From contig NC_092562.1 of the NCBI RefSeq assembly GCF_037975245.1, forward strand, positions 25,231,054-25,295,053: a stretch of 64,000 bases of DNA, written 5' to 3'. Origin of the DNA: Apostichopus japonicus. Its lineage: Eukaryota; Echinodermata; Holothuroidea; Aspidochirotida; Stichopodidae. A model generated the notes under the pieces. It made no database searches. It was not told the DNA's origin and was given only the letters and a program-made list of their open reading frames with translations. The position numbers and the translations under genes are program-made. This document shows, in pieces, positions 2,030 to 32,230 of the stretch. The stretch's first letter is position 1. Every line of letters starts with the position of its first letter.

Positions 2030-13446
<11,417 letters not shown>

Positions 13447-13449
13447 TGT

Positions 13450-15172
13450 GCTGATGTTTCTGTCCCATGGTATGTTGTGTATATTCATGACAGGGTGGAT
13501 ACTCATAAAGGTATTGTCGGGGGTGTTTTACGGTATGTTAGGGATGATATTGTAAGTGTTGAAAAGTCTCAGTTGCAAGTTTCCTTTGTAAATTCTGTCT
13601 GATGCGAGTCCACAGACAACTCCAAGAGGTCCAGCGGTGTTACAACTTTTGGTGTTTTTTGCCGTTCTCCTAACATCAGCGAAGATGACGATGACTTGCT
13701 GTTTGATTCAATTAGAAAGGCTGAAAAAGATGATTATGTTATAATGTGCGACTTTAATTTCCTGCCATTACTTGCATAGATGGTTCCAATGGTAGGAAGG
13801 GTAGTAACTTTGTAGATGTTGTGCAAGATTGCTGTTAACATCAGCATGTTACTTTCCCTACTAGGTGGCATAACATCCTGGATCTTGTCTTGAGTTCTGA
13901 TCCAAGCAATGTTGTTGTTTTGACGGTCTTAGGAAAACTATGAACTAGCGATCTTGATAAACTAGCTTTAGATGTTGTTTGAAAGGTCGTAAATTCTGTG
14001 AACAAGGAAAAGTCCCTGATTTTTCGAGATCAGATACAGAGGCAATTGAAACTTTACTAAAGGATACGGATTGAATTAATTTGTTTATAGATATGAGTGC
14101 TTCTCAATGGATTTGTTTAGCTGATAAGTTAAAGGTCATTATGGAAAATCATGTTCCGTGGAAAAATTGCAGTATGCCACCTTGGAAAAATAAGAATGTT
14201 AGATGTGCAATTAAGCAAAAACGTAGAATGTGGAAGTTATTTAGGAGGACTAATTCTGAATCTCTTTTGGTCAATTTCACAATGCATCAGCTGAAGGTAG
14301 AAAGCTTAGTGTCTGATGCAAAATTGAATTTCGAAAATAACATTGCCTTGGATATTAAGGATAACCCATTACCTTCTTTTCTTATTTCAGGTTAAAGCAG
14401 AAAGTTAAAGTTTCTCTAAGGGAAATACAGTCAAGATCTTGCAGATCTTTTGAACAAATATTTTGTGTCGGTTTTTACAAGGAAATATATGTGAAGTATT
14501 CCAGATTTTCAGGGGGTGGGGGGGGGGATGAAGTGATGGTCCTAAACTGGATACGGTCTTATTTTCGGATGAGGTTTTCTTAAAGGAGCTGCTTTTTCTA
14601 AATGTTTTTTTAAAGCTTCTGGACCTGATGCAATCCATCCGTATTGACTTTGAACACTATTTCTGCGTTCCACTCTCATTGGTTTTTAGTTAATTTATGA
14701 ACGAATGTCATATTCCTAAGGATTGGAGATGTGCTAATATTACCCCAAATTGCAAGAAGTTTGATAAGTCCAAGCCCTGCAATTATAAGCCCGTTAGTCT
14801 CACTAGTGTTGTTTGTAAGGTCATGGAGTATATTGTTAAAAAGTCTATGGCCATGGACTGCAGTTAACTTAGTGGTCAGTCTTTGATCAGAGAGTCTCAA
14901 CTTTGCTTTTGTCAAAAATGGTCTTGTCTCACTAATGTTCCTGAGTTAATGGAAGATGTAACAAGCTCACTAAATAGGCAGAAGTCTGTAAATGTTGTGT
15001 TACTGGATTTCCAGAAGGCCTTTGATAAAGTTCCCACAAGCGTCTTTTATTTAGGCCGTAGAGTATGTGTGTCAAGGAGAATTTAATGTCTCGGATGGAG
15101 AATTGGCTTGGTTATAGGAAACAGAGGGTGGTAATTAAAGGCTGTGCTTCTTCTTGGCAGGACGTTACTAGT
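13450..15172 (+). mobile_element. decayed CR1/L2-like LINE, 5' part (endonuclease to RT domain A)
   Basis: Starts just after the stop of the NERD gene. Recognisable pieces in order: endonuclease start (about 13490-13560), an endonuclease MCDFNF block near 13745 (family form GDFN), a linker with NVRCAIKQKRRMWKLFRR (14081-14395), RT palm motif LLDFQKAFDKV (about 14997-15030), and ENWLGYRKQRVV to WQDVTS ending at 15172. Many stops and frameshifts, so inactive. A G-run interrupts it near 14513-14527. The next residues expected of this family, GVPQG, appear at 27713, after the inserted element. Confidence 0.85.
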
Positions 15173-15182
15173 GCGTGCGTGA

Positions 15183-15258
15183 ACGGCGCCTATCGGGGAT
15201 AATCGTTAGGATACACACCCGTCAACTGGGGATACTCCGCATAACGGGGATATCCCCG
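15183..15258. repeat. left terminal inverted repeat and subterminal GGGGATA motifs
   Basis: ACGGCGCCTATCGGGG at 15183-15198 is the left terminal inverted repeat. GGGGATA occurs at 15195, 15228 and 15246, the last inside a perfect 14-bp palindrome CGGGGATATCCCCG (15245-15258). The right end has the same motif family. Such clusters are usual binding sites for an element's own protein; that role is inferred here. Confidence 0.7.
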
Positions 15259-15419
15259 ATTTTAGATTCATCAAAATACAGTCAAATGGGGTGTCAATAA
15301 CATGCTCAGGGGTTGTCAGTGAGTTCTGAGCATGTTCCCCACTATCCAGGTTTTAAACGCATTTAGGTGTAAAAAGTGTGTAAGCTTCGCATGGAATTTT
15401 TTTCATACACCGGTGTAAG

Positions 15420-15524
15420 CCTGTTTCACAACATCCGATTGGCGCGCCACATTTCCCGCGCTCTCCGCAGACCGTGTGTACACCGAGTACGAAACTAACG
15501 AAGAAATCGACCTACCAAATGCAA
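15420..15524 (+). promoter_or_regulatory. possible promoter / 5' UTR exon of the element gene
   Basis: A GC-richer patch (GGCGCGCC, CGCGCTCTCC) about 250 bp inside the left end, followed by ATGCAA with a consensus donor GTGAGT after 15524. Spliced to 16960 it would give only a 4-codon upstream frame, so if real it is a non-coding first exon. No RNA evidence; suggestive only. Confidence 0.25.
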
Positions 15525-16959
15525 GTGAGTTTTCGTTCAAATTTAAAAGAAGGAGACGACCTTATTGTAAGAAATCAGCCGACTGGCATATCAATACTAA
15601 AAAAAAGTAGACAAAATAGCGAATCTAACAACTTAGATATGGGTAGCGTCGATGCAGTAACTTAGCCTAAATGTTTACGTTAGGCATATACGGGGCTAGG
15701 CCTAGCTTTAATTTTAACGTTGCGGTACATCGTCGAGTGCCTTTTTAAGTAAGGCTAAAATTGGACCAAGATGGGTTTTCAGGTAGAAATGTAATACTTT
15801 AATTTACAGAAGCTATGGTTATATTAAAATATATAAATTGGTCAACATGTCATTCTTAGATTATACATGTTTCACTTGCGTTTCCAAGGGATGTTTAATT
15901 AACTGCTATGGAATTGTGGACAACCAACGTTACCATCAGTACATCACCTCCCCACATTGAAGATCGTGTTATTACTGCGTAGCTTATGACATACTTTAGA
16001 CCAATTAGTACATGCAATGTCACGCATTGCATTTGTGCAGGCGTAGGCCTACATGTAGCCTAACTTTTGGTCTAGTCCTCAGTCTATGCTTAATTAATAG
16101 TAATAGCTAATACTTAAGATTTTTGTAGGACAAGTATTGGAAAATATGTAGCATTAATTAGTCCTTGAATAGCCGTATCATTTTAAGTGGAAAATGTTCT
16201 ACATTGAAAGGAGTGGGGGGGGGGGGGGGTGGGGGAGTCTACAACTACATGTATGATGTAAGTATGTTATTGTTAACACTATTTGGCATCAACTAAAGTT
16301 GGTAGAAGACAATGATTGAGAAATGTAATTAAAGTTTGCTCTCCATAAATTTTGGTTGACATTGGGAAATTACATGAGATGTTCAGAAAAACTATGGTCC
16401 TCTACATTGCTAAGATGATGATGAAATATATTTGCCTGTAGCAAACATGTGATTGCATGGTATTGGTAATGAAAAAATTCACTGTTATCATTCAACCTCT
16501 TTATTATCTCAAGGGAGGAGAGGTTGATTTCAGTAATATTAGCCCATGTGTTAAAACAAAAATGGTACGGTATGCTGAAATTACAAATTCTCTGAACTGT
16601 GTACAGAGGTTGTCCTGTTATGTGTTTTGTCAATGCCACACCAATTCAGTATGCAATAACTAACAGATAGGCTATTCCCAGTTAACATTGATGTTATGTG
16701 CACTATTGTTGTCTAATAATATTCCATGCATGTTTTATTAAGCTTAATACTGTATGTGGGCTAGGAATAGCAAACTGTCAATTTGCACAATGTTTGATGA
16801 AGAGCTCTGCACAATAATGGTTAAAAACATTTATTTTATTTACATGTTTTAACATATATCTGAAACTTCCAATAGTGCAGGGGGTTAACCTAATATTGCA
16901 ATGAATTTGAATTTAGTCACTTTCTCAATCTATTCTAATCTTATTCCTTTTGATGACAG
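15525..16959. other. element 5' region without coding sequence
   Basis: AT-rich, with a G-run at about 16215-16228. No frame with recognisable similarity. It may be the first intron if the donor after 15524 is used. The acceptor before 16960 is TTCCTTTTGATGACAG. Confidence 0.4.
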
Positions 16960-16967
16960 GCAAAATA

Positions 16968-17073
16968 ATGAGGCCAAAAAGGAGGCGATTAAACCACGAG
17001 GATGTGGCCAAACAATATATCAACCAGAAGAAAGATAGGCAAGGTTTTTCAGTGAAAGAAATACCACAAAAAG
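16968..17073 (+). CDS. SET-recombinase gene, exon 1 (pre-SET)
   Basis: The ATG at 16968 lies 8 bases after the acceptor (exon start 16960). It encodes MRPKRRRLNHEDVAKQYINQ onward to the start of the SET fold (GFSVKEIPQK). The basic start suits a nuclear signal. Donor GTAAGT, phase 1. A further upstream start is not excluded, but the KMT5A-like alignment begins here. Confidence 0.8.
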
Positions 17074-20000
17074 GTAAGTTGAAATACTACAATACTTTTC
17101 AATGTGAGCAGTACATGGCTTGATATACTGTAGGTGTAGTAAGAAAAAGGGAGGGAGAGAATAAAAATATGCATCCTGCCTTTGCAAGTAAAAGTAAGCG
17201 CATGTCAATTATGTCTGTCCTGCAAAACATGTCATGTGCAGTGGCGTCGCCAGACATTTCAAACTTGGGGGCACAGGGGAGGGGGGACAGCACTTAATTA
17301 GAGGGGCACAATGTTTATTTGTGAATGCTGTCCTTTGAAAAATTTCTATTAATTAAGGGTGCTATATTTTGCAACTTGAAGTAACTTTATTTTTAAGAAT
17401 TTGGGGATTAGTCTGTCCGATATTTATGTTTGTAATTGAGGCAGATAAAGTTTTTGTTTGAGTATTTTTTATAAGCACTACAAATCGCATCTGGGGGGCA
17501 CCTGGGAAGGCTCAATTCTTTTTGGGGAGGGCACGTGCACCCCCCCCGGACCAGGCCACCCTGACTGCACCACTAGTGTGACCCCTACCTTTTGAAGTAC
17601 GAGGTGGAGACTACTACTGGAGAGTTGGCCCCTCAACAATAACCATAAACTGATTTTATTTACTGCAGGTAGAGGAGTCGTAACAGATTCCTTCTTTGAA
17701 AAGGGGGAATTTCTCTTACAGTACAGTGGAAAGTGCCTTACAGCTACAGAAGGAGATCAGCTGGAAAATGAAAATTCATCTGGATTCAGATTCTTCATCA
17801 AGTGCAAAGGCAAGGAATATTGGTAAGGCATTTGGTTTTGTGAGAAGTGTATGTACAAGGTCATGTAAAGTTCAAGGTTATTTTTAGTTACTCTATTCCT
17901 AGCAATCCGTTGTTCTTGAAAGAATCTATGCGTTGTTGCCCGTCTTTCTGTGTGCGTTATGTGCGTGACACGATATCATATTTGCATTCAGCTGTGCATG
18001 ATCGATTGGCTTGTCCAATCAAGAGTTATTATTGTTGGTATACTGGAACTGAGTTTGAAATGTATGGCTTACTCTGTATTTGTTATAGCACAGGTATCCA
18101 TTTATTAAACTTAGTTGTGAAAAGAAATTGAGATAAACTGCACCACCCATTGAAATACTGAATCAAGCCTGCATTTGTACTTTCTCTCCCTTCATTTATC
18201 CAGATAAACAATGTGTGATGTATATGACACTACTTGGTTAACCTAGGAGTTATTAAGGCTGCAATTGTTCATAATTATCTTTGTTTTCCTGCTATCTTTA
18301 TTGATCCATTGTTATTAACAAACAAGGCTTTTTCATTTATAGCATTGATGCAACTGAGGAACCAACGTGCGGTCCTAAATTAGGAAGACTTGTTAACCAT
18401 GGAGAAAAAAGAGAAGTGAATGTAAAACTTCATATAATTCAAGTGAGCGGTGAACCAGCATTGTGCCTGTTTGCATCAAGGAATATCGAAAGGGGTGAAG
18501 AACTGCTATATAACTATGGCGTTGGAAACTTACCGTGGAAGAACTGCACCCAGGTTAGACCATTGTTTCTAACATTATTATCAATTTGCTTCTCCAGCAG
18601 GCTTTGACAACCCAAACAAATTATTTCAATCAGTTATCACATGGGCAAGCTTTAGAATCATGTAACTGGGACCATAATCACCAGTATACTACATGGCCCC
18701 AGTTTAGGCTGCATGGTAAGAGTTAGGTTCCATCTTCTTTGTATCGTTTACTGTTGTCAAAGTATATATAATTCAAAGATCTCATAGCCATTCCATAGAC
18801 CAGTCTGCTATACTACAATATATTGAAGCCAAATGTCAAGTTCTTCATGAAATATGAAAATAAAAGTTAATATCTATTAATTTTTTTTCTAACAGACAAA
18901 ACAAGGCAGAGAAAGTCCTCAACCTCCACATTGTGTGGAAGGAGGTGTGTCTTCAAAAGTTTCCAGGAAGTCTACTGATAAAGGTTAGTCAAAAAACTTA
19001 CATTTTATCTTCAACACCTATTGTAAAATTTGAAATTTTTTGTAAATTCACAAAGACAGTATAGGTGACCCCAGTTCCCTTAAGTATAGCTTGGATTTAT
19101 CCCCACTTTCAGTGTACAAGTTCATCAATGAGCATCTATATATATATATGTGTATATATATATGTGTGGCTTAGGCTTACAGAAGGCAAGGCTTAGGCTC
19201 ACAGAAGAGGAAATATATTCTTTTCTTTTACAGTCACAGAGTGCACACAATTGCAACAAATTACCTTGCATGTAAACAAGGAGTGGGGTGAATTGTAATT
19301 TCTAGCTAATTTGTACTGCTAACATATTCAAGATATTTTTTACTCACTTAACTGTATCTTTGTCTTTGCGCATGGAAGAGGATATCCCCTGTTCCATGTA
19401 TAATATGGATTTATCCCTGTTTTCAGTGTACACTTTTTATGTAGGTCTAGTTTACACTGTCGGCATGCAGTATCGCACACACATGCAATACTCACAAGAC
19501 CAGTGTTTCTGTCATCCCAAAGAGCTCAGCTGATAGCCTACTAGTGTGATCTTTAGTCATTGTGCAGCTCAATCTATCTGTCTGTCAACAAATACATACA
19601 ATTGCTATTACTTGTGCATTATTTTGCCGATATGATGCACTTGGTCAAAATGATCACCAAGTAAGGGGGCATCAGTGGTGTTGTTGGGGAATTAGAGGTC
19701 AAAGGTCATAAAGGATTTATATTCAGCTATTTTGTGAAAACACAAGATATTCTCATTCCCCAATTTGAAAGTGATATTGATCAAAATGGTCTTTGACTTT
19801 TCCACATATGGGATGTCAGGAACTTGAGGTCAAAGGCCATGTTGGGTCATTCTCTGCCATTTTAGGAAAACACAATTGTTAGATGTGTAGATTGCACAAA
19901 AACTATGAAACTGCTCAAAAAGGTTTGTTTGCAATCAAAGTTTAATTTTCATTGTCAATGTCATAATTTTGCTAATATGGGTAATTTTTGTCTTCTTCAG

Positions 20001-23000
20001 TGTAACTCAATAAATGGCATACTTCATATGATTTTTTGCAACATTGGTGATGCAGTTTTAAGCTGTCTATTTAGATAAAGCAATGTTAACAAGTGCTTTT
20101 TTTTGTGGCTCTTTTCCTCTTTAAGGTGCTGCTAAAAAGTCACCTGTAAACCTACCTGTAGAGGGTCACACAGATCCAGTGACTGATTCCTCGATGGCCA
20201 GCTGCAATACGAAGAACTTCGTTGACTTGGCAGAAAGCGCCTCACAAGCATCAGGTGCAGACTGCAGTGACCAGATTCCAGCTGTAAACCTACCTGTAGA
20301 GGGTCACACAGATCCAGTGACTGATTCCTCGATGGCCAGCTGCAATACGAAGAACATCATTTACCTGGCAGAAAACGCCTCACAAGCATCAGGTGCAGAC
20401 TGCAGTTACCAGATTCCAGCTGTAAACCTACCTGTAGAGGGTCACACAGATCCAGTGACTGATTCCTCGATGGCCAGCTGCAATACGAAGAACATTTACC
20501 TGGCGGAAAACGCCTCACAAGCATCAGGTGTGAACTTCATATCAGTAGCAGGTTTGCATCCGGCCATAGCAGAAGATGAGCAGTCACTTCCAGATACTGA
20601 GATAATAGGTCCCAGTGACACAGAATCGACAGGAGGTAGATTTCTAGGAGATAGTGGAGCTTTTGAGTCAGCAGAGACAGGTTCAGGGTCAGAGGATGGT
20701 AATCCAGAGTCAGCACAGGGAGATACAGGGTCAATGGATAGCACAGAGTCATTAGATGGTGATCTTGAGTCAGTGGAAGATTGTTCACAACCAAGCAGTG
20801 ACGATTCTGATGTTGAATCATATGTTCCTGATTCAGATGATGAGTGTTCTGTGCATTCAGATGTTATTCCATTGAAAAGATGGGCAAGGTCTGTTCCTAT
20901 CAATGGTCAAGGAAGAAGTCCTACTCAAAGCTGCTCAACTGCAGAAGAAAAAACCAGCCCTAGCACAAGAAAAAATGATTCTAACAGCAATGAAGTTGCA
21001 AGCACATCACATTCATGTACCGAGACGGAAAGCAAGGTCTATGTTATGACAACCCATAATACTGCTAACGGTAGATGTTATGACAAACCCGCGTACTGCT
21101 TCGTTTGCTCCAGGCCACAGAAAAAACTAAATGTTCACATTCTCCAGCATAGCACTACAGCCCAGGTGGCTGAATGGTTGGCCGCAAAGAAAGGACCAGA
21201 AAAAGATAAACTTTGGATAAAAATGAGAAACTATGGAAATCACTTGCATAACTATGAGGTACTAAGCAAAGGAGAGGGTGAATTGATAGTTGTATATCGA
21301 CCACAGAAATGTGGAGACCCCAATGACTATCAGCCTTGCTTGGATTGTCTTGGTTACCTGTCTCGTAATGAATTTTACAGGCACAAATGTAAACTAAGAA
21401 GAGAGCAGGATCATGAGGAGAGTGAAGAACAGAAAAGAAGACATTCTCTCCTCCGAGATGCAAGAATGCTCTTGCCACCACCCTTAGGTGTTCGTGCTGG
21501 CGATGTCATTCACAGACTTTTGAACTCTTTGCTATGTGATGATGTATCGGTTTGTATCAAAGGGGATCCTATGATAGTAGAGTTGGCTAGAAAGTTTTGT
21601 TTCAAACATGGACACGACAAAGAGCAGTTCAAAACCCTAAGGAACAAGCTAAGAGAAATAGCTCGTCTTGTACTTGAATATCGACAAATCAGTGGACAAC
21701 ACAGTGCTACCTTGGCCGACTTAATTGTCCCATCAAGGTTTGAACTTCTCCTCAAATCTGTCAGGAGTGTGTGTGGATTTGACGAAGAGACCCACCAATA
21801 TACTAAACCAAGTTTGGCACTTAAACTTGGGCACAGTCTGAAGAAAGCGGCTATGCTTGTAGTCAGTACGGCTTTGATTGAGGAGAACAAAGAAAAGGAG
21901 AGGCAGGCCCGAGATGTCATCACCTTACTCAATGAAAATTGGGATTGGGAAGTGTCCTCTCATGCTTTGCGGACATTGTATGAAGGCAAAAGAAACAACC
22001 CCAAACTGGTCCCTCTAACAACAGATGTTGTTCTTCTCTCCAAATATCTCAGAGGAGAGGCAGAGAGTAGCTTAGCTGATTTGAAGAAAGCCAAAGCTGT
22101 AGAGGAAATCAAGAAAAGTTGGAGAAACCTTGCTGAAATCACACTGACACAGATACTTTTGTTTAACCGCAAACGGCAGGGCGAGGTTTCAAAGCTGACA
22201 ATGGAAGACTATGCAAAACTAAAGAAAGGAGAATCACATGTTCTAGACATGCAGATATTAAGCAAGTTTGAACAGAACCTGGCAAAAGTCATATGGCGTG
22301 TCGAAATTGTTGGAAAACGCGGCAGATCAGTTCCTGTTCTTATCACAGAGAATGTAAAATGTGCTGTTGATGAGCTTGTAAAGCATAGAGATGCTGTGGG
22401 AATAGAACCCCAAAACCTCTTTGTATTTGCTATCCCAGAAGGGTCAACTCATTATATCCGTGCCTGCGACACATTGCGTAAATTCTCTTGTGCATGTGGT
22501 GCAAAAAAACCAGAGTTGCTTCGATCAACACAGCTAAGGAAGCACATCGCAACCATGTCCCAAGTAATGGCCCTACAAGACAACGAACTTGATGTCCTTG
22601 CCAACTTCTTGGGTCATGACGTAAGGGTTCATCGGGAGTATTACCGCTTACCTGATGCAACTATCCAAGTTGCCAAAGTTTCAAAGCTTCTGATTGCCCT
22701 TGAGGGTGGCAGTGGAGACCCCGGACAGGTTTTGCAAGGAAAGAGTTTGGAACAACTAGATTTGCAGGAAAATGAAGGTAAAGTTTGATATGTTAAAGTT
22801 TTCTCCCCATATAAGCCCACTCATAAATTGTTGTTTAATTACCCATGGGCCCTGACCTCCATTACAATTTTAAACTTGGGGTTTGCCATCAAACACAGTT
22901 CCCATGATTTTGAAAAGTATGGTAAAGTCTGTTTAATCACTAGATTTTGTGCTAGCAACAGTAGTGAAAGTGATTTGCTGTTTACTTACATTACATACCA

Positions 23001-25360
23001 TCTTTAGACACTTCCCTTGAATGCATGGAGTATCATGGTTCCCTCCATTCTCCCTCCATACCCACACCCCGTCACATGGAGCTTTGTAACTAGATAAGTT
23101 GCTATGGGAAAGCTGAGGCCAAGAGGAGAGTTAAGACATTTGGTACTAAGTTTTAAACCAGGAAATTCTGGAAAACTGGTAAATGCTCCACAAACTTAGA
23201 AATACATGTCAGCTAGACCTGGAGGGAGTTTATTTAGTGGGGATACACACTGTTATAAATCCACTAGACAGGGGATGTCTATAATAAAATCAACTATGAT
23301 AGATTGACTACTGTATTTTCAATTGATATACCTATCAGTTGGAAATTGGATAGTAAAGTGGGGATGCACACTATTGTAAAACCAGTAGGCATAACTTAAA
23401 ATATGACAGTTAAGAATTATTGTTTAGAATGACTACCGTATTGTGAATTGAAATGCATGTCAGTTGAAACCTGGGGAATAAAGAGGGAATACACACTGTT
23501 ATAAAACCAATAGACAATGTACATCTACAATTACATCAAATATGACAGTTAAGAGTTATAAATGTTAAGACTACTGTATTGTGAATTGAAAAACATGTCA
23601 GTCGGAGCATACATTGTGAAGAGGGGATACACACTGCTTTAAAACCAATAGACTGGGGATATCAACAATAACATCAAATATGACGTTAAGAGTTATTAAT
23701 GTTCAGAGTAAATGTTGTACTGTCAATGTAACTCTTTCACTTTACCTTTACTTTACAAGTACCATTTCCCTGTAGGACATCTCATGCTACATTGTAGGAA
23801 TTTGCAAGTGATATAAATTGGGTACTTCTCTTAACACAAAGTGCACATTATGACTGAGCTTAAATTGTTGGCCCAAATGTAGCTACACTAGACAAAGTTT
23901 TACTCAAGGGCTCACATGATGCATAGTAAGCATGACATAAGTTATTTATAGCATGCTATAGGTAGGGCCAATACAGCAGATCTTTAAGTGAGAGGTTTGC
24001 TTAGCAAATTAGGTTCTTGATATTGTGAGACGGTTAAAAGTCGGCTTAAACACACTAAATGCTGTGCATTGGCTCAAGTGGTAGAATAGGTCTTGGCAGA
24101 CAGTAAAGGGGTTTGATATCAATTATTGGGCCAAGTTTTAAATCAAATAAATTGCCCAACTTGTTTCCCACTTATCAATCAGTCCTTTGCCAACTTCTGA
24201 TTATAGTAGTATTTGCCTCAATCAGGTAGTTGAAGGGTAACATCCCAAATTTTATCCGTAAGAGCCTGGTAGTCCATATAACTGCATTCACCAGTGACTG
24301 TAATGTGATATCTTTCGCACAGGTTGTGAGTATACAGGTCCTTGGTTCAACTGTTAAGCCAAACTCTAACCTTCCTCAATGCTAGCCATCAAAAGTCTTG
24401 ATCCTTGAGCATACTTATGATGATTTTCTTTTTTCATGTACAGAAGTTGCAACAGAGGGAGACTATGAGCAAGAAGATTCTGATCAAGATGACTCTATTG
24501 AGCAGCCTGTTGATGACAGTGATATCAAGAAAGGACACTCTCTGAATGATGCTCAACAAACAGGTATAGAAAATACTGGATTGAATATCTTTGAGCTCTG
24601 GTTTAAAAAAAAAAGAAATAAAAAGTAAGCTTTAATTGCAAACAAAATTGAATGCCTTTTTTTGCATTGTGGTCGGTTCAATAACTTCACTGCTTTGTAG
24701 ATTACCAGTTGGCATTATATCTAGAAAAGTAGAGCTTTAAAGAACAAATTGGAACAGTATGCTTATAGGGGAGGATAAACAAACATGTTTTGTAAGAAAA
24801 AGAAAACCGTCAATGCTTTGATTTACATTAGTACTCCTTAGTAGTCATGCTGTTTAAAACAAAATACTTAACAAGCTGATATTTTTTATTTGAACATGAA
24901 AATGTAAAAGTGCTCATATTGCTTTTAGATATTGTCTCTCATTGTAATTTTTGGAAAGTTCAGTTTTGATTACATGAATACTATCTGTGTGCGCAGTATA
25001 GTTATTATCTCAGTACATAACATGAAAGGAGACATTGTCACCATAGCCGACCCACTAGAAGTGCAGCTTTAAAATATTTCTGTGTCTTGATCTGTACTAT
25101 CTCTTTCAACTTTTTTAGAGCCAATGCCCAAAGACAGACAGAAGAAAACACCATGGACCACTCAGGAGCAAGCGGCAGTCCATCGGCACTTAGGACAATA
25201 CATTGCAGCATCAAAGTTGCCTGGAAAGTCAGCAATAGTGAACTGCATGAGTCTGGAACCATGTCTTCGTAATCGAAGGTGGACCAATGTTAAAGATTAC
25301 ATCAGAAACAAAATCTGTTCTATAGCACGAAAGGGACAGAAAAACTTTGTAAAAAAGTAA
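16968..25360 (+). CDS. SET methyltransferase - tyrosine recombinase - Myb/SANT-like fusion (seven exons, 1190 aa)
   Basis: Exons 16968-17073, 17669-17822, 18343-18553, 18896-18983, 20126-22777, 24444-24563, 25119-25360; all junctions are GT-AG and the sum (3573 nt) is one open frame. Order: aa ~10-157 a KMT5A/SETD8-type SET domain (KGRGV, RLVNHG, GEELLYNYG); aa ~193-322 three 46-aa repeats; an acidic Ser/Asp/Glu linker; aa ~505-625 Cys/His motifs (CFVC, CLDCLGYL, HKC) within a HNYEVLSKGEGELIVV-type domain; aa ~830-1040 a tyrosine-recombinase-like core with R870, K917, R991, H1017, Y1026; aa ~1125-1190 a Trp-containing Myb/SANT-like tail. KMT5A monomethylates H4K20; similar SET proteins with such tails are multicopy in fish and some invertebrates, as I recall. 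As the element's only gene it is the likely mobility protein, with the SET module perhaps acting on chromatin at donor or target. The box-II His is replaced (TQLRKH). Confidence 0.85.
17239..17575. repeat. hAT-type MITE-like repeat in intron 1
   Basis: Begins CAGTGGCGTCGCCAG and ends GCCACCCTGACTGCACCACTA, roughly an inverted match; it is G-rich with the GGGGGCAC strings common to the other CAGTGGCG repeats in the window. No convincing 8-bp target duplication is visible, so the limits are approximate. Because it lies inside the larger element it inserted after, or travelled with, that element. Confidence 0.5.
17669..17822 (+). CDS. SET-recombinase gene, exon 2 (SET N-terminal half)
   Basis: Encodes GRGVVTDSFFEKGEFLLQYS and on to the split Cys codon after KGKEY. 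GRGV and the F-E/x-KGEF-x-x-x-Y pattern are the AdoMet-binding start of KMT5A-type SET domains. Acceptor TTTATTTACTGCAG, donor GTAAGG, phase 2. Confidence 0.85.
17823..18342. other. intron 2 of the SET-recombinase gene
   Basis: 520 bases between donor GTAAGG and acceptor TTCATTTATAG. No repeat, RNA gene or second coding frame that I can support; open frames crossing it end at random stops. Confidence 0.6.
18343..18553 (+). CDS. SET-recombinase gene, exon 3 (SET catalytic half)
   Basis: Completes Cys87, then 70 codons with GRLVNHG (cofactor-binding NH motif, aa 101-107) and ERGEELLYNYG (catalytic/lysine-channel Tyr143 and Tyr145). No post-SET Cys cluster, in keeping with KMT5A. Donor GTTAGA, phase 0. 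Confidence 0.85.
18896..18983 (+). CDS. SET-recombinase gene, exon 4 (linker)
   Basis: Encodes a short Ser/Lys-rich linker, TKQGRESPQPPHCVEGGVSS and a few residues more. Acceptor TTTTTTTTCTAACAG, donor GTTAGT; phase 0 in, 1 out. It is the only link between the SET exons and the recombinase exon, and its frame fits both. Confidence 0.75.
18984..20125. other. intron 4 of the SET-recombinase gene
   Basis: About 1.1 kb. It contains a short TATATA tract (19138-19165), a GAGGATATCCCC string (about 19379) like the subterminal motif, and a diffuse GAGGTCAAAGGYCAT repeat in two copies (about 19693 and 19827). No coding frame. The acceptor is TTTTCCTCTTTAAG. Confidence 0.5.
20126..22777 (+). CDS. SET-recombinase gene, exon 5 (repeats, zinc-like region, tyrosine recombinase core)
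   Basis: A 2652-base exon. It starts with three 138-bp repeats (46 aa each), then about 150 residues of Ser/Asp/Glu-rich linker ending near PLKRWARS. Then Cys/His pairs CFVC...H...H and CLDC...H..C around a conserved LHNYEVLSKGEGELIVV block. The C-terminal 250 residues match the tyrosine recombinase layout: RQGE (22174-22185), VGKRGRSVPV with Lys (22315), LRKHIAT (22534-22554), LGHD (22609-22620) and REYYR (22630-22644). Donor GTAAAG at 22778, phase 1. Without splicing the frame would stop only four codons later, so the exon end is inferred from the phase match with 24444. Confidence 0.85.
20146..20535 (+). repeat. three in-frame 138-bp tandem repeats
   Basis: Units start at 20146, 20284 and 20422 (each from GTAAACCTACCTGTAGAGGG). 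The first two are nearly identical; the third has lost one codon near AACATTTACC and its last third. Each unit encodes 46 aa with the core HTDPVTDSSMASCNTKN. Near-identity implies recent expansion. Confidence 0.9.
22778..24443. other. intron 5 with a ~125-bp tandem array and SINE-like scrap
   Basis: From about 23195 to 23720 four divergent units of 120-138 bp share GGGGATACACACTGTTATAAAACCA-like cores (abbreviated: GGGGATACACACTG) and GACTACTGTATTGTGAATTG. A tRNA-like A box (TGGCTCAAGTGGTAGA, about 24070) and a B-box-like GGTTTGATATC (about 24112) suggest a SINE remnant. No coding frame. Confidence 0.55.
24444..24563 (+). CDS. SET-recombinase gene, exon 6 (acidic linker)
   Basis: Encodes about 40 residues rich in Asp, Glu and Ser (EVATEGDYEQEDSDQDDSIE onward), an acidic spacer before the C-terminal domain. 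Acceptor TTTTTTCATGTACAG, donor GTATAG; phase 1 on both sides, so it could be skipped without breaking the frame. Confidence 0.7.
25119..25360 (+). CDS. SET-recombinase gene, exon 7 (Myb/SANT-like tail)
   Basis: Encodes PMPKDRQKKTPWTTQEQAAV onward, with KLPGK, EPCLRNRRW and VKDYIRNKI, then TAA at 25358-25360. I recall the same PW-x-x-x-E-x-x-AV...R-x-W/L-x-x-V/I-x-x-x-x-x-N pattern at the ends of multicopy fish proteins that share the exon-5 domain, which supports the join. The fold is probably a Myb/SANT-like DNA-binding helix bundle. A polyadenylation signal AATAAA lies at 25839. Confidence 0.8.
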
Positions 25361-25389
25361 GGAGTTCATATGCAGATCTATTCATTTCA

Positions 25390-26945
25390 GACTACAACCT
25401 GTAAAGAAGTTTTTATCAGTGAATTTGACGCAAGAGTTTTGGACACAAGTTCACCGAAATACACTTAAGAGGGGTATTTCTCATTTTTAATCATTGTTAC
25501 CGAAAGATTAGTTACATTTTGAAACTTTAGGCACCAACCTCACCCATGTATGATTAGTAACTGAATTTCACTGGTAGTTGAATGAACCCGAGGCTCCTTC
25601 TATTGAGCAATGGATCCACTGAACAAAAACTATTAATTGTCACTTGTTTCACATGATAGTTTGCCCAGGGATACATGACTTGTACTGACATCAACTTCTC
25701 TGTGACCTTCTGTTTTTGTTTGAAGTAGTTTAATTCTTGTTCAGATGTAAACTTTTACTTAATTTTCCTTCGGGTTTAAATTTTGTTGCTTTCTAATATG
25801 TTCCCTCAGCTTATGCTTTTTTCTTGTAAACCAGAAGTAATAAAAATGACAGAAGTGTTTTGTAGAAGTTAAGGAGTTTGTTTTAATTTTAGCAAGGTCC
25901 TTCTGGACTTTAACCTACCTGCAAGGAAGAAATTTTGTTGCCTATTTTTGTTGTTTGATGTCATTTAAAACTGTTCAATGGCCTTTGAGTGTTTAACAAG
26001 TTCACTGAAGTAAGCTTAACAAACTGTATTGTTAATTTTAAGGTATTGTTACAGAAGGATTACTTACTTATTGAAAACTGCCTTGGCAGATTACGTAGAA
26101 AGTCACTTAGTTAATAATTGGTGTGGAACAAGTTGGCAGGTTTCGCTGTTCATAGTGGCATATACCTGAAGCTCCTCATATTGAGCAAAGCATTCACTGA
26201 ACAGAAAACAATTGTTTGTTAGGTGATATGTCATGTGAGAGGTTGCCCAAGCAAAAATGACTCTTGCCAATATTGATATGAACTTTTTCTGTTTGTTGTT
26301 TGAAGTAGTTTTATTCTTGTTGAAAGGGAAACGTTTACTTAGTATGCCTTCAGCTTTAAATTTTGTTTTCTTTTCTGTTCTGTCCATACATGCTTTTTCC
26401 TGTACACCAGACATAATATCTGCTCAAATGTACAAAAGTGACTGATGTAGTTAGTGAGAGTTAATTAGTGTTTATGGAGATCAGCAAGATACTTTACACT
26501 GCAAGGAAGAAATCGTGTTCCTTTTTTGTTTGTTTGTTTGTTGTCACTTAAAATCGCTCAATGGCCTTTGAGCTTTTAACAAGTTCACTCAAGTAAGCTT
26601 AAAATGTGGTATATGCCTTTTTTCAGGTATTTTTACTTTTTCAATACGTCTGTCACCGTTGGCAGTTTATGAAAGTACACCCATGTTCGGTTACTTATTG
26701 AATGGTGACAATAATATTGAGTTCACTCAACAGAGAACAACTTTGTCATCAGGTGATATGTCATGTGATATGCTGCTGCTGAAGTGTAAGTGACAGTATG
26801 TGACAAAATAGAAATCATCTTTCTACCCCTTATGTTTTTACTTTCAAGTGGTTTTGTTTTTGTTATACATAAATTCATGCATTTGTCTTTACTGAAAGTT
26901 GCTGTTTTGTTATATGCTCACTTTGTTGTTTAAGTAAAAATAAAG
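25390..26945. repeat. three ~585-bp tandem repeats after the stop codon
   Basis: The landmark CAATGGCCTTTGAG recurs at 25977 and 26560, and blocks such as GAAGTAGTTTTATTCTTGTT, TTCAGCTTTAAATTTTGTT and CACTGAACA recur with the same spacing. The third unit is partial. Each contains T-rich stretches; AATAAA occurs at 25839 and 26939. They form the 3' flank, or 3' UTR, of the element's gene. Confidence 0.7.
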
Positions 26946-27466
26946 TGGGTCAAACTCAGAAAAAGGTGTGAATCTTGTTTATGTGCATATTTTGACTCAA
27001 TGTGAACGCAATAATATCTGAGGTAATATATGGATGTGGACCCCTTTTTTCTCACTCAGATGTTTCAGTGAAAACACAGGTAATGGATTTATAGCAAGAG
27101 AAAGAAATGACATGGTTTATGTGTATATAAACTGACTCCTTGCCTGTTTCCTGCACTGAAATAGCACTCTAACCAACAGTGGTGTCTGTGTTTCTATAAA
27201 TCTGGCACCTTTGGGCAAGTACCACTGGCGTAGATCTCTTGGAAAGCCAAAGTATCCTGTTACATCATCGAAACCACAATGCATTTTTGCATTCTGTTAC
27301 ATTTTTCCCCTGGATGATTGACAGATGCTTTAATAAAAGACTCCCATGTTGCAATGGAACACTGGTACTCTCGTTTTGTGGAATTCAACATTCTCACCCA
27401 ATCAAAGGAAAATAATCTAAGTAAAGTCACCTTGGGATATATCATTTAATTCCTCGCAGTTACATT

Positions 27467-27698
27467 GGGGATATATATGTATATCCCCAGTCCCATGTCA
27501 AAAAAAAAAAATGTGTTATCCCCACTTTGCACGTAAAGGTTCAAACCAAGAAAACAAAGCTTCTCTACCTTCTCAATATGATAACATGCAATGCCAGCCT
27601 GTATTCGTCATAAAACGTGAAAAACATCATTCAAAAGTTACTCAGAACAGAAGTCCCCAGTTTGCATTAATACAACTTGCTTCCCCAATAGGCGCCGT
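27467..27698. repeat. right terminal inverted repeat and subterminal motifs
   Basis: Near-palindrome from GGGG at 27467 to CCCC at 27488 (GGGGATATATATGTATATCC plus two bases), another TATCCCC at 27517-27523, and the inverted terminal repeat CCCCAATAGGCGCCGT at 27683-27698. The motif family mirrors the left end in inverted orientation. Confidence 0.7.
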
Positions 27699-27712
27699 AA
27701 ACGCGTATGTGT

Positions 27713-27802
27713 GGGGTTCCACAAGGGACTGTTTTCGGTCCCTTGTTGTTTGTTGCTTATGTAAATGACATTGACGGAGATATTTTGTGTACATCTAAGA
27801 AG
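27713..27802 (+). mobile_element. continuation of the interrupted LINE (RT GVPQG motif)
   Basis: Reads GVPQGTVFGPLLFVAYVNDI followed by DGDI, the RT motif that follows WQDVTS in CR1/L2-type LINEs. In frame with 15172 once the insert is removed. The RT then ends abruptly before the YADD motif, so the LINE was 3' truncated or rearranged. Confidence 0.8.
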
Positions 27803-30239: not shown

Positions 30240-32230
30240 ATGGGGCAATCAGTGGTTCACAACAGCTTAGGAACTACTACTGAAATGAAGGGTTCATATA
30301 AGCATCGGGCACATTTAATAAGATGCTCATGAACCCTGCTCTTGAAGGTCTGTGCGCCGTTGCCAGAAATGGCACCAACAACGCTTTCCGGCAGGCTGTT
30401 CGAAACATGTACTGCAGACGTTTGGATGAAGGTCCTGCCTGTGGAGAGAGTTCTGGAAACAGGTACTGTGAGAGCATGACAGGGCATTGATAGGCTGGAG
30501 CGGGTAGCTCTTCTAACTACATAAGGCTGTGGTAGCAACGCTTTAAGGTCCGGTGAGCAAAAGCTGGTGTGAATCATGTAAAGAACAGTAGCCGCTACCA
30601 CCTGGCGTCTTTGATGGAGGGTAGAGATATTCAGCTCTGAATTTGCTTCCTCTTCGCCTGTGCCTATGATACGGAGGGCTTTCCTCTGGATTGAGTCAAG
30701 TAATCCTAGAGTAGTGGGGCTGGCGCTCATCCAGGAGAGTGAGGCGTACTCCATCACACTACGTACATGAGCCTTGTAGACATGTTGCTCTACCTCTAAC
30801 ATCCAGTTTGTTGGTAAATCTCCTCAGGGCACCTAGCTTCTGTCCTGCTCTCGATAAAAGGTTGGAAATATGCTTTGTCCATGTCAGCCTGCTGTCAATA
30901 GTGATTCTTAGAATCTCCAGCTTCTGTTTTGCGGCCAGATTTGTGCTTCCGAACAGTAGATCCAGTTTGGTTGGATTCCTCTTTCTTGTGATGGTGAGTG
31001 CCTTGCATTTCGATGGCTCGATGGCTTTGGTCTGCTCAAAAACCTTATTCTATTTAGGTCTCTGTTTAGGCTTGCAGTTTTGGCGTCAAGGTCATCAGTT
31101 GATTTGATCTCACAGAACGAGGTAGAATCATCTGCATAGAGGTAGAGTGAGTTCTCACATTCCTGCTCCAGATCGTAAATGAAGACAGAGAACAAGAGTA
31201 GGCCCAGGATTGACCCCTGGGGAACTGATGCATTGATGGAAGAGATACTTGATGACTGGCCAGAAAAGACAACTTTGATGGACCGGTCTGACAGGTCGCT
31301 CCTAATCCAAGCAATTAGCTTACCAGATACTCCTTTTGCAACGTTTTGAGCAGAGACCTTTGTGCCAGACCTTGTCAAATGCACATTTGATATCCAGGGC
31401 AATCAGACGAACCTCGTTACCTCTGTTCAGGGTGTTGGACCACTGTTAGGTAAGATTGGTGATGATGTCGACCGTGTTGTGGTGTGATCTAAATCCACAC
31501 TGCCTATCCGATATCAGGTGATTCTTTAAGTGGTACTTCTGAAGTTCATTATGTACAGCTGCCTCCATAACCTTGCTGATGATGCAGAGCAGAGAGATGG
31601 GTCGGTAAATAGAAGGATTGGACTTTGAGTCTCTCTTATGAATTGGGATGACAGATGCAGTCTTCCATTGGCTTGGAAAAACTCCTTGCGAGAAGCAGAG
31701 CTCAAACAGCATGCTGAGTGGTATTGCAAGTTCTGCACTGCACTCCTTCAGGACTCTGGGTGGGATTTCATCTGGACCAGTGGCTTAATCAGGTTGCATG
31801 TTGCTTAGAAGCTTCTTGACATATATAGTCTTGAAGGCTATCCTTTCCTTAGAGCATGTTGTTGTTGATGGACTTCAGGAGCAGGCTCCTCTGCGCCGAT
31901 AAGACGACATTTTTCAGCACAGGTCTTTCAAAATCTTTCGGCCTTCTCTCTTGCTGAGGTGAAGACTTTGTGCTCATCTTTCAACACATGTATATCAGCT
32001 CTGGTGGATTTTCCAGACAGTGCGTTATTTTGACTGAATGTCAAGGTATTAAAGGGACATTCCGTTTGCAGACAATATTTTGCACCAGATGATTGGTTCC
32101 TGACCATTAAAATTGTCATAACTGGAGAACTTGTCGAAACTAGACACCTTTTTTCCAAATGGTCGGACGACCATTTGGGACAATCTGAATAAGGCCTCTT
32201 GAAATTCCTTCATGAACCCTGTGGCATATG
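30240..32230 (-). mobile_element. 5'-truncated, decayed LINE (CR1/jockey-like group) on the minus strand
   Basis: Read on the minus strand from about 32200 to 30257: a leading segment (ALSGKSTRADIHVLKDEHKV), the RT entry QWKTASVIPIHKRDSKSNPS then YRPISLLCIISKVMEA and QCGFRSHHNTVDI (31446-31712), the RT core VPQGSILGLLLFSVFIYDLE and YADDSTSFCE (about 31115-31230), and the C-terminal segment VYKAHVRSVMEYASLSWMS, then LDSIQRKALRIIG (30257-30802). It is broken by frameshifts near 30805-30910 and 31410-31450 and lacks an endonuclease, as expected of a 5'-truncated copy. Unlike the LINE at 13450, its RT is continuous. Confidence 0.85.

Follow-up and report, generated by a model that had tools for sequence, protein, structure and literature searches.

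A spliced SET–tyrosine recombinase gene in a probable DNA transposon that interrupts a LINE of Apostichopus japonicus

What kind of DNA has separated the two halves of a reverse transcriptase that are normally contiguous? The question is raised by a 64,000-nucleotide stretch of the holothurian Apostichopus japonicus (the window; NCBI RefSeq assembly GCF_037975245.1, contig NC_092562.1, positions 25,231,054 to 25,295,053 of the forward strand), where the reverse transcriptase of a LINE (long interspersed nuclear element) is split between DVTS and GVPQG by a 12,540-bp insert. A reading made from the letters alone (the sequence-only reading) had proposed this break and had taken the insert for an element containing one gene. 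Very likely, in our view, the insert belongs to a large group of DNA transposons that have been active recently and are moved by a tyrosine recombinase (YR) that they encode themselves.

Both junctions lie where they had been proposed, the left one (15172/15173) reading ...GACGTTACTAGT / GCGTGCGTGAACGGCGCCTATCGGGG and the right one (27712/27713) ...CCCCAATAGGCGCCGTAAACGCGTATGTGT / GGGGTTCCACAAGGG. The LINE pieces match the Pfam family RVT_1 with 29.8 bits (left) and 13.7 bits (right), and when joined they give a single match of 48.6 bits (profile 5–141). The joined flanks (93+87 nt, a query of 180 nt) were searched in the species' own genome (671,581,487 bases in 35 contigs), where at least 40 matches of 92–94% identity were found, a lower bound since 40 of 401 candidates were scored. 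Exactly 180 bp are spanned by 31 of the 40, and 174–181 bp by the others; seven of the 40 are located on contig C9 at 30.4–31.5 Mb. All six copies that were fetched are uninterrupted, GACGTTACTAGTGGGGTTCC being present letter for letter in four of them and with one change each in the other two. Uninterrupted copies, which the sequence-only reading had suggested looking for, are thus plentiful, and the insertion has therefore added 12,540 bp.

The ends had been described as inverted ACGGCGCCTATYGGGG repeats with GCGT just outside. For the inverted pair, 2 were found in the window at up to 3 mismatches versus 0.08 expected from shuffles, and genome-wide the end motif has 21 sites at up to 1 mismatch (reversed control: 0), consisting of seven inverted pairs and seven single sites. 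Such pairs, for which that reading had also proposed a genome search, are 4.3–12.5 kb apart: C2 (our copy, 12.5 kb), C15 (12.35 kb), C16 (12.46 kb and 4.3 kb), C11 (5.8 kb), C17 (4.5 kb) and C19 (8.1 kb). The inverted pair thus holds up, while GCGT has to be reassigned: the outer arms, GCGTGCGTGA on the left and AAACGCG on the right, are constant in all seven paired copies and are therefore part of the element, not of the target.

The full copies on C2, C15 and C16 (12.35–12.52 kb) show pairwise identities of 98.6, 98.8 and 99.0%. Measured from ACGG, their homology extends outward by 12 bp at the left end and by about 15 bp at the right end; over the next 1.5 kb they have only TG or AT tracts in common. 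At their left ends, the four shorter paired copies show 80–84% identity to ours and 91–94% to each other. Near-identical copies with unrelated flanks, which had been named beforehand as what would establish mobility, mean that the element has moved, and we regard its mobility as demonstrated by these comparisons.

The one gene noted inside the insert is spliced and encodes a SET–zinc finger–YR–Myb-like protein (Table 1). Among the sense open reading frames (ORFs) of the element, only one, the YR exon (20125–22788), reaches 120 aa. Exons A–C are in frame together, as are exons D–F, with consensus-like splice sites that are identical in all three near-identical copies; because exons C and D are out of phase, one exon between them is probably absent from our gene model. 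Exons A–C constitute a SET domain (PF00856, 4.6e-17, 62.8 bits) that is closest to KMT5A/SETD8 (6e-21; the 14 best PDB rows are KMT5A/SETD8) and has the NH and ELxYxYG motifs of the KMT5A type as GRLVNHG and GEELLYNYG. Exon F gave no Pfam match and was named Myb-like by eye. The length of exon C is 211, 212 and 210 bases in C2, C15 and C16 (the latter two being L067 and L070), differing at an A-run, so that in C15 and C16 this exon is either broken by a frameshift or affected by a homopolymer assembly error. In the frame read, exon D of the C15 copy has a single stop, which falls on its last codon; this copy also has a 138-bp gap at the exon D tandem repeat (20141–20554).

In an alignment of 17 YRs, R390/R392, K439 and R513 are invariant, and H539 and Y548, the presumed nucleophile, occur in all except the truncated L047, while the first H of HxxR is replaced by T510. 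The residues thus follow the order characteristic of the tyrosine recombinase superfamily (R, K, (H)xxR, H/W, Y), and a model built from the 17-row alignment resembles the YR catalytic fold; a model from the single sequence was discarded (pLDDT 34.3). A profile of the 17 YRs, compared with the PDB by sequence, found nothing. DUF3504 is not among the Pfam rows of any of the 17 (E up to 1), nor is DUF3435 among their Pfam matches. Within the genome the YR query matched at least 79 stretches (a lower bound, as 74 of the 200 candidates were scored). Some of these stretches are pieces of a single copy; identities range from 99% (besides ours) to 30%, and several sets of near-identical open copies are included. 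No relative was confirmed among IMG/VR contigs (two stretches by single-sequence pattern, nine by alignment), prokaryote genomes (31 pattern stretches) or phages.

The YRs fall into subfamilies, which we designate by their identity. In two of them (L031–L034 and L041–L044) copies are 98.4–99.8% identical over 4.7 kb. SET exons were found in the 65% (C5), 51% (L028) and 44% (C21, C16) subfamilies, and the conservation of SET while the YRs diverged to 44–65% identity indicates that it matters to the element. The Myb-like exon adjoins the YR in our, the 65% and the 42–46% subfamilies; it was not seen within 1.5 kb of the YR in the 51% and 39–40% subfamilies, this span being all that was examined in most subfamilies, so that absence there says nothing. 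As DNA, our copy can be aligned with C5 only over 93 columns at the left terminus and in exon B and the YR exon; as protein, exons A, C and F match too, but not exon E. Within subfamilies, dN/dS of the YR is 0.08–0.34 in 10 of the 12 pairs with dS above 0, the remaining values being 0.72 and, in a pair with 3 changes, 0.55; a 13th pair is identical, several pairs rest on few changes, and dS between subfamilies is saturated. Judged from such comparisons, the protein has been under selection.

Both ends were reached in our subfamily, in one 65% and in one 44% subfamily, and all have similar inverted ends and a size of at most 21.5 kb; they usually lie within (TG)n tracts, always relative to the same strand. 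The C5 element (about 1340799–1354364, 13.6 kb) runs from (GT)n...ACGGCGTCTATTGGGG to ...CCCCGTTTGGAGCCCTAAACAGGTATG(TG)n. For the 44% subfamily, all four copies have a right end that reads (CA)n...TACATGTAACAGGCTCCAATCGGGGAC in the inward direction. In both copies whose left end was examined, that end reads ...TGTGCGTGTGTAACAGCTTCCAATTGAGGAC, which gives these two elements sizes of about 21.5 and 19.1 kb. The pattern ACAGGCTCCWATYGGGG has seven sites at up to 1 mismatch, of which the four exact ones are the right ends of four 44%-subfamily copies; the three 1-mismatch sites are distrusted because a reversed control also matched (4 sites, 2+2).

A motif, [AT]A[ACT][CT]GGGGA, recurs in the left terminal block at 15191, 15224, 15242 and, reversed, 15253. 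Its distances from the left end are nearly alike in our copy (18, 51, 69 and 80 reversed), C21 (52, 70 and 81 reversed) and C5 (17 and 79 reversed). The counts inside and outside the element are 7 in 12.5 kb and 2 in 51.5 kb for our copy (single-base shuffles: mean 0.9, maximum 6), 10 and 0 (in 3.4 kb) for C5, and 49 (mostly from a single tandem array) versus none (in 10.2 kb) for C21, but they are descriptive only, as the motif was picked after inspection of our ends. The C21 and C16 elements of the 44% subfamily (L052/L054) contain an array of units of about 199 bp with this motif, about 18 units in the C16 copy and more motif copies in C21; it is possibly a binding array.

The flanks also reveal a target preference. 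Of 21 end flanks from our subfamily and the 65% one, 11 have a GT run of at least 10, versus 4 of 1428 overlapping windows further out; for AC runs the corresponding figures are 1 of 21 versus 2 of 1428. With GT runs of at least 8, the counts are 13 of 21 versus 12 of 1428. From the difference between GT and AC, the orientation of the element relative to the TG strand looks fixed, which is the expectation for site-specific recombination. The sites are not all independent, because some flanks belong to one repeat family. Seven insertions from two subfamilies (L004, L005, L016, L018, L053, L055 and L056) lie in the (GT)n of this apparent family, (GT)nGACGC...GCTTGTATGCACGATAAC or similar; on the right side, L004, L005, L016 and L018 have flanks whose homology reaches as far as the insertion, and a pattern search found no paralogous empty site.

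As the C2 insertion lies outside a TG tract, the crossover can be read in our copy, where at most GTG is common to both sides. In the pair on C17, the left side has GTG where the right side has GTC, and a 7-bp TATGGGT is identical on both sides; other copies lie inside TG tracts. The 7 bases beside the left arm vary with the target (TGTGTGT in four copies, otherwise CGTGTGT, TATGGGT or TACTAGT), and those beside the right arm are TATGTGT in five of seven, TATGGGT in one and AATGTGC in one. This pattern agrees with a short YR crossover, a few bases long, whose core is supplied by the element itself; it leaves the crossover length unfixed, and TATG may be just part of the right end.

We favour a process in which the element moves, probably by site-specific recombination and through a circle, and infer that the YR is the acting enzyme. 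Its subunits would bind the inverted ends and the adjoining motif arrays and join the ends into a circle, an intermediate suggested by known YR elements, with a junction of the form CCGTAAACGCGTAT...GCGTGCGTGAACGG and a short TG-type core. Conservative strand exchange spanning a few bases would then recombine this junction with a TG tract in the chromosome, resulting in a single orientation to the TG strand and no real target duplication. The SET domain might mark chromatin at the element or the target, or another protein of the complex. A gapped-pattern search of the assembly yielded no circle junction (0).

Of the other explanations, a derived animal Crypton that has gained the SET domain, the Myb-like domain and the inverted ends survives best, though we think it unlikely. 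Among animal DNA transposons, Cryptons are the ones known to have a YR alone, and most CryptonS share TATGG termini, reminiscent of the TATG at our right ends (PMC3212892, partial text). As in CryptonA and CryptonI, for which movement through a circle has been proposed, the YR is the only recognisable recombinase in our element. However, that paper describes Cryptons as lacking inverted repeats, the animal ones having neither terminal repeats nor a C-terminal domain, whereas our element has terminal inverted repeats and, in our, the 65% and the 42–46% subfamilies, the exon F domain. The SET domain, introns, size of up to 21.5 kb and TG preference are further differences from the published description. 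DUF3504, the family matched by Crypton YRs (PMC3212892, partial text), gave no row for the 17 YRs at E up to 1. Direct repeats of 4–6 bp at the termini are another Crypton trait, to be compared with the GTG at C2 and the TATGGGT on both sides at C17.

Much less probable is a DDE cut-and-paste transposon with 3-bp GTG duplications and a transposase encoded elsewhere, in which the SET–YR gene would be cargo or, as proposed for Tec, would resolve an intermediate. Target duplications of 3 bp do occur in CACTA-like elements, the insert has terminal inverted repeats, and exactly GTG is common at the C2 junction; moreover, Tec1 and Tec2 carry both DDE and YR genes (PMC3212892, partial text). Against this, nothing but the YR exon reaches 120 aa among the sense ORFs of the element, the YR gene and the end type travel together in subfamilies with 44–65% identical YRs, and in C17 GTG and GTC disagree while TATGGGT matches on both sides.

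Large YR-carrying viral sequences are present in crustacean genomes (PMC10871703, partial text), yet an endogenous large DNA virus integrating by YR, as reported for nimaviruses, can hardly account for 12.5 kb that hold no further sense ORF of at least 120 aa and have no confirmed relative among viral contigs. A host SET–YR gene family spread by segmental duplication, with the ends arising by chance, would explain a conserved multi-exon gene with mostly low dN/dS but is practically ruled out by the precise insertion into the LINE, the uninterrupted LINE sites, and near-identical copies that match end to end with only TG tracts common in the 1.5 kb outside.

The transposon that we favour shares single traits with several other systems. 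The Starships of fungi are likewise large YR-moved elements, some with short inverted ends, but their captain YR belongs to the DUF3435 family, which is not listed for our YRs, and no cargo gene was seen in our element. DIRS and Ngaro elements also integrate by YR without target duplication, but no reverse transcriptase was seen in our element: the LINE pieces lie outside its ends, and as the YR exon is alone among the sense ORFs in reaching 120 aa (shorter ORFs were listed, outside the Pfam scan), there is no room for one in a single exon. Tn916/Tn1549 are bacterial conjugative elements with other genes. SETMAR is a host gene in which a SET domain is fused with a mariner DDE transposase, and its SET is matched by that of our element at 7.9e-8; here, SET is joined to a YR inside mobile elements.

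No described element joining SET and YR was found in the literature searched, which excluded Repbase, most subscription papers and preprints outside PMC; PMC5240408 and PMC9406493 describe none in the parts available. Within that literature, the earlier remark that such a gene and such ends do not go together in any described superfamily is upheld. It is possible, rather than probable, that the group is a separate DNA transposon superfamily with a recombinase built into a histone methyltransferase, the SET domain writing an H4K20-like mark at its own ends or at TG targets and so tying both excision and insertion to the state of the chromatin or to S phase. The element would then carry its own epigenetic control. 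Large sets of 'KMT5A-like' genes occur in fish and invertebrates, and on this interpretation they would be largely element copies; should the group prove widespread, many of the genes with a KMT5A-like annotation may in fact be transposons. Exact ends, target preference and an empty site are now available for a many-copy group of YR DNA transposons in one eukaryotic genome, and the conserved histone-methyltransferase domain of its members offers a testable case of a transposon that may write chromatin marks. A YR inserting into short TG tracts is possibly also a useful recombinase.

Table 1. Positions of the element, its gene and the split LINE within the window.
Feature	Position	Strand	Remarks
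LINE reverse transcriptase, left piece, ends ...SSWQDVTS	14694..15172	+	decayed, frame broken; RVT_1 profile 5-84
Outer left arm GCGTGCGTGA, between crossover and inverted repeat	15173..15182	+	same in 7/7 paired copies
Left terminal block kept in 65%-subfamily copy C5	15179..15270	+	77% over 93 columns
Left terminal inverted repeat ACGGCGCCTATCGGGG	15183..15198	+	
Exon A, basic region before SET, first Met MRPKRRRLNHEDV	16960..17073	+	splice sites, frame; 3/3 near-identical copies; weak match in C5
Exon B, N-terminal half of SET domain	17669..17822	+	
Exon C, C-terminal half of SET domain (GRLVNHG, GEELLYNYG)	18343..18553	+	
Exon D: repeats, two zinc-finger-like CCHH/CCHC motifs, YR core-binding and catalytic domains	20126..22777	+	
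138-bp coding tandem repeat, start of exon D	20141..20554	+	
YR catalytic residues R390 (22168), K439 (22315), TxxR513 (22537), H539 (22615), Y548 (22642)	22168..22644	+	17-copy alignment; frame at 21001
138-bp tandem repeats outside exons, carrying GGGGATAC	23236..23707	+	
Exon E, acidic linker	24444..24563	+	no match seen in C5
Exon F, C-terminal Myb/HTH-like domain and stop	25119..25360	+	beside YR in 65% and 42-46% subfamilies
Right terminal inverted repeat ACGGCGCCTATTGGGG; motif copies at 27654, 27682	27683..27698	-	
Outer right arm AAACGCG-TATGTGT	27699..27712	+	TATG at same place in 65% and 44% subfamilies
LINE reverse transcriptase, right piece, starts GVPQG	27713..27799	+	RVT_1 profile 118-142

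Elsewhere in the window, a second LINE reverse transcriptase fragment is located at 30911–31402 on the minus strand (RVT_1, 1.5e-7), with SVPQGS near 31225. To the left of the insert, at 11060–13446 on the plus strand, there are two overlapping ORFs of 417 and 389 aa, which are perhaps one gene read in two frames; the 417-aa ORF shows weak P-loop matches together with a NERD-like one of 19.4 bits (E 0.0015), which falls short of the cut-off of 22.1.
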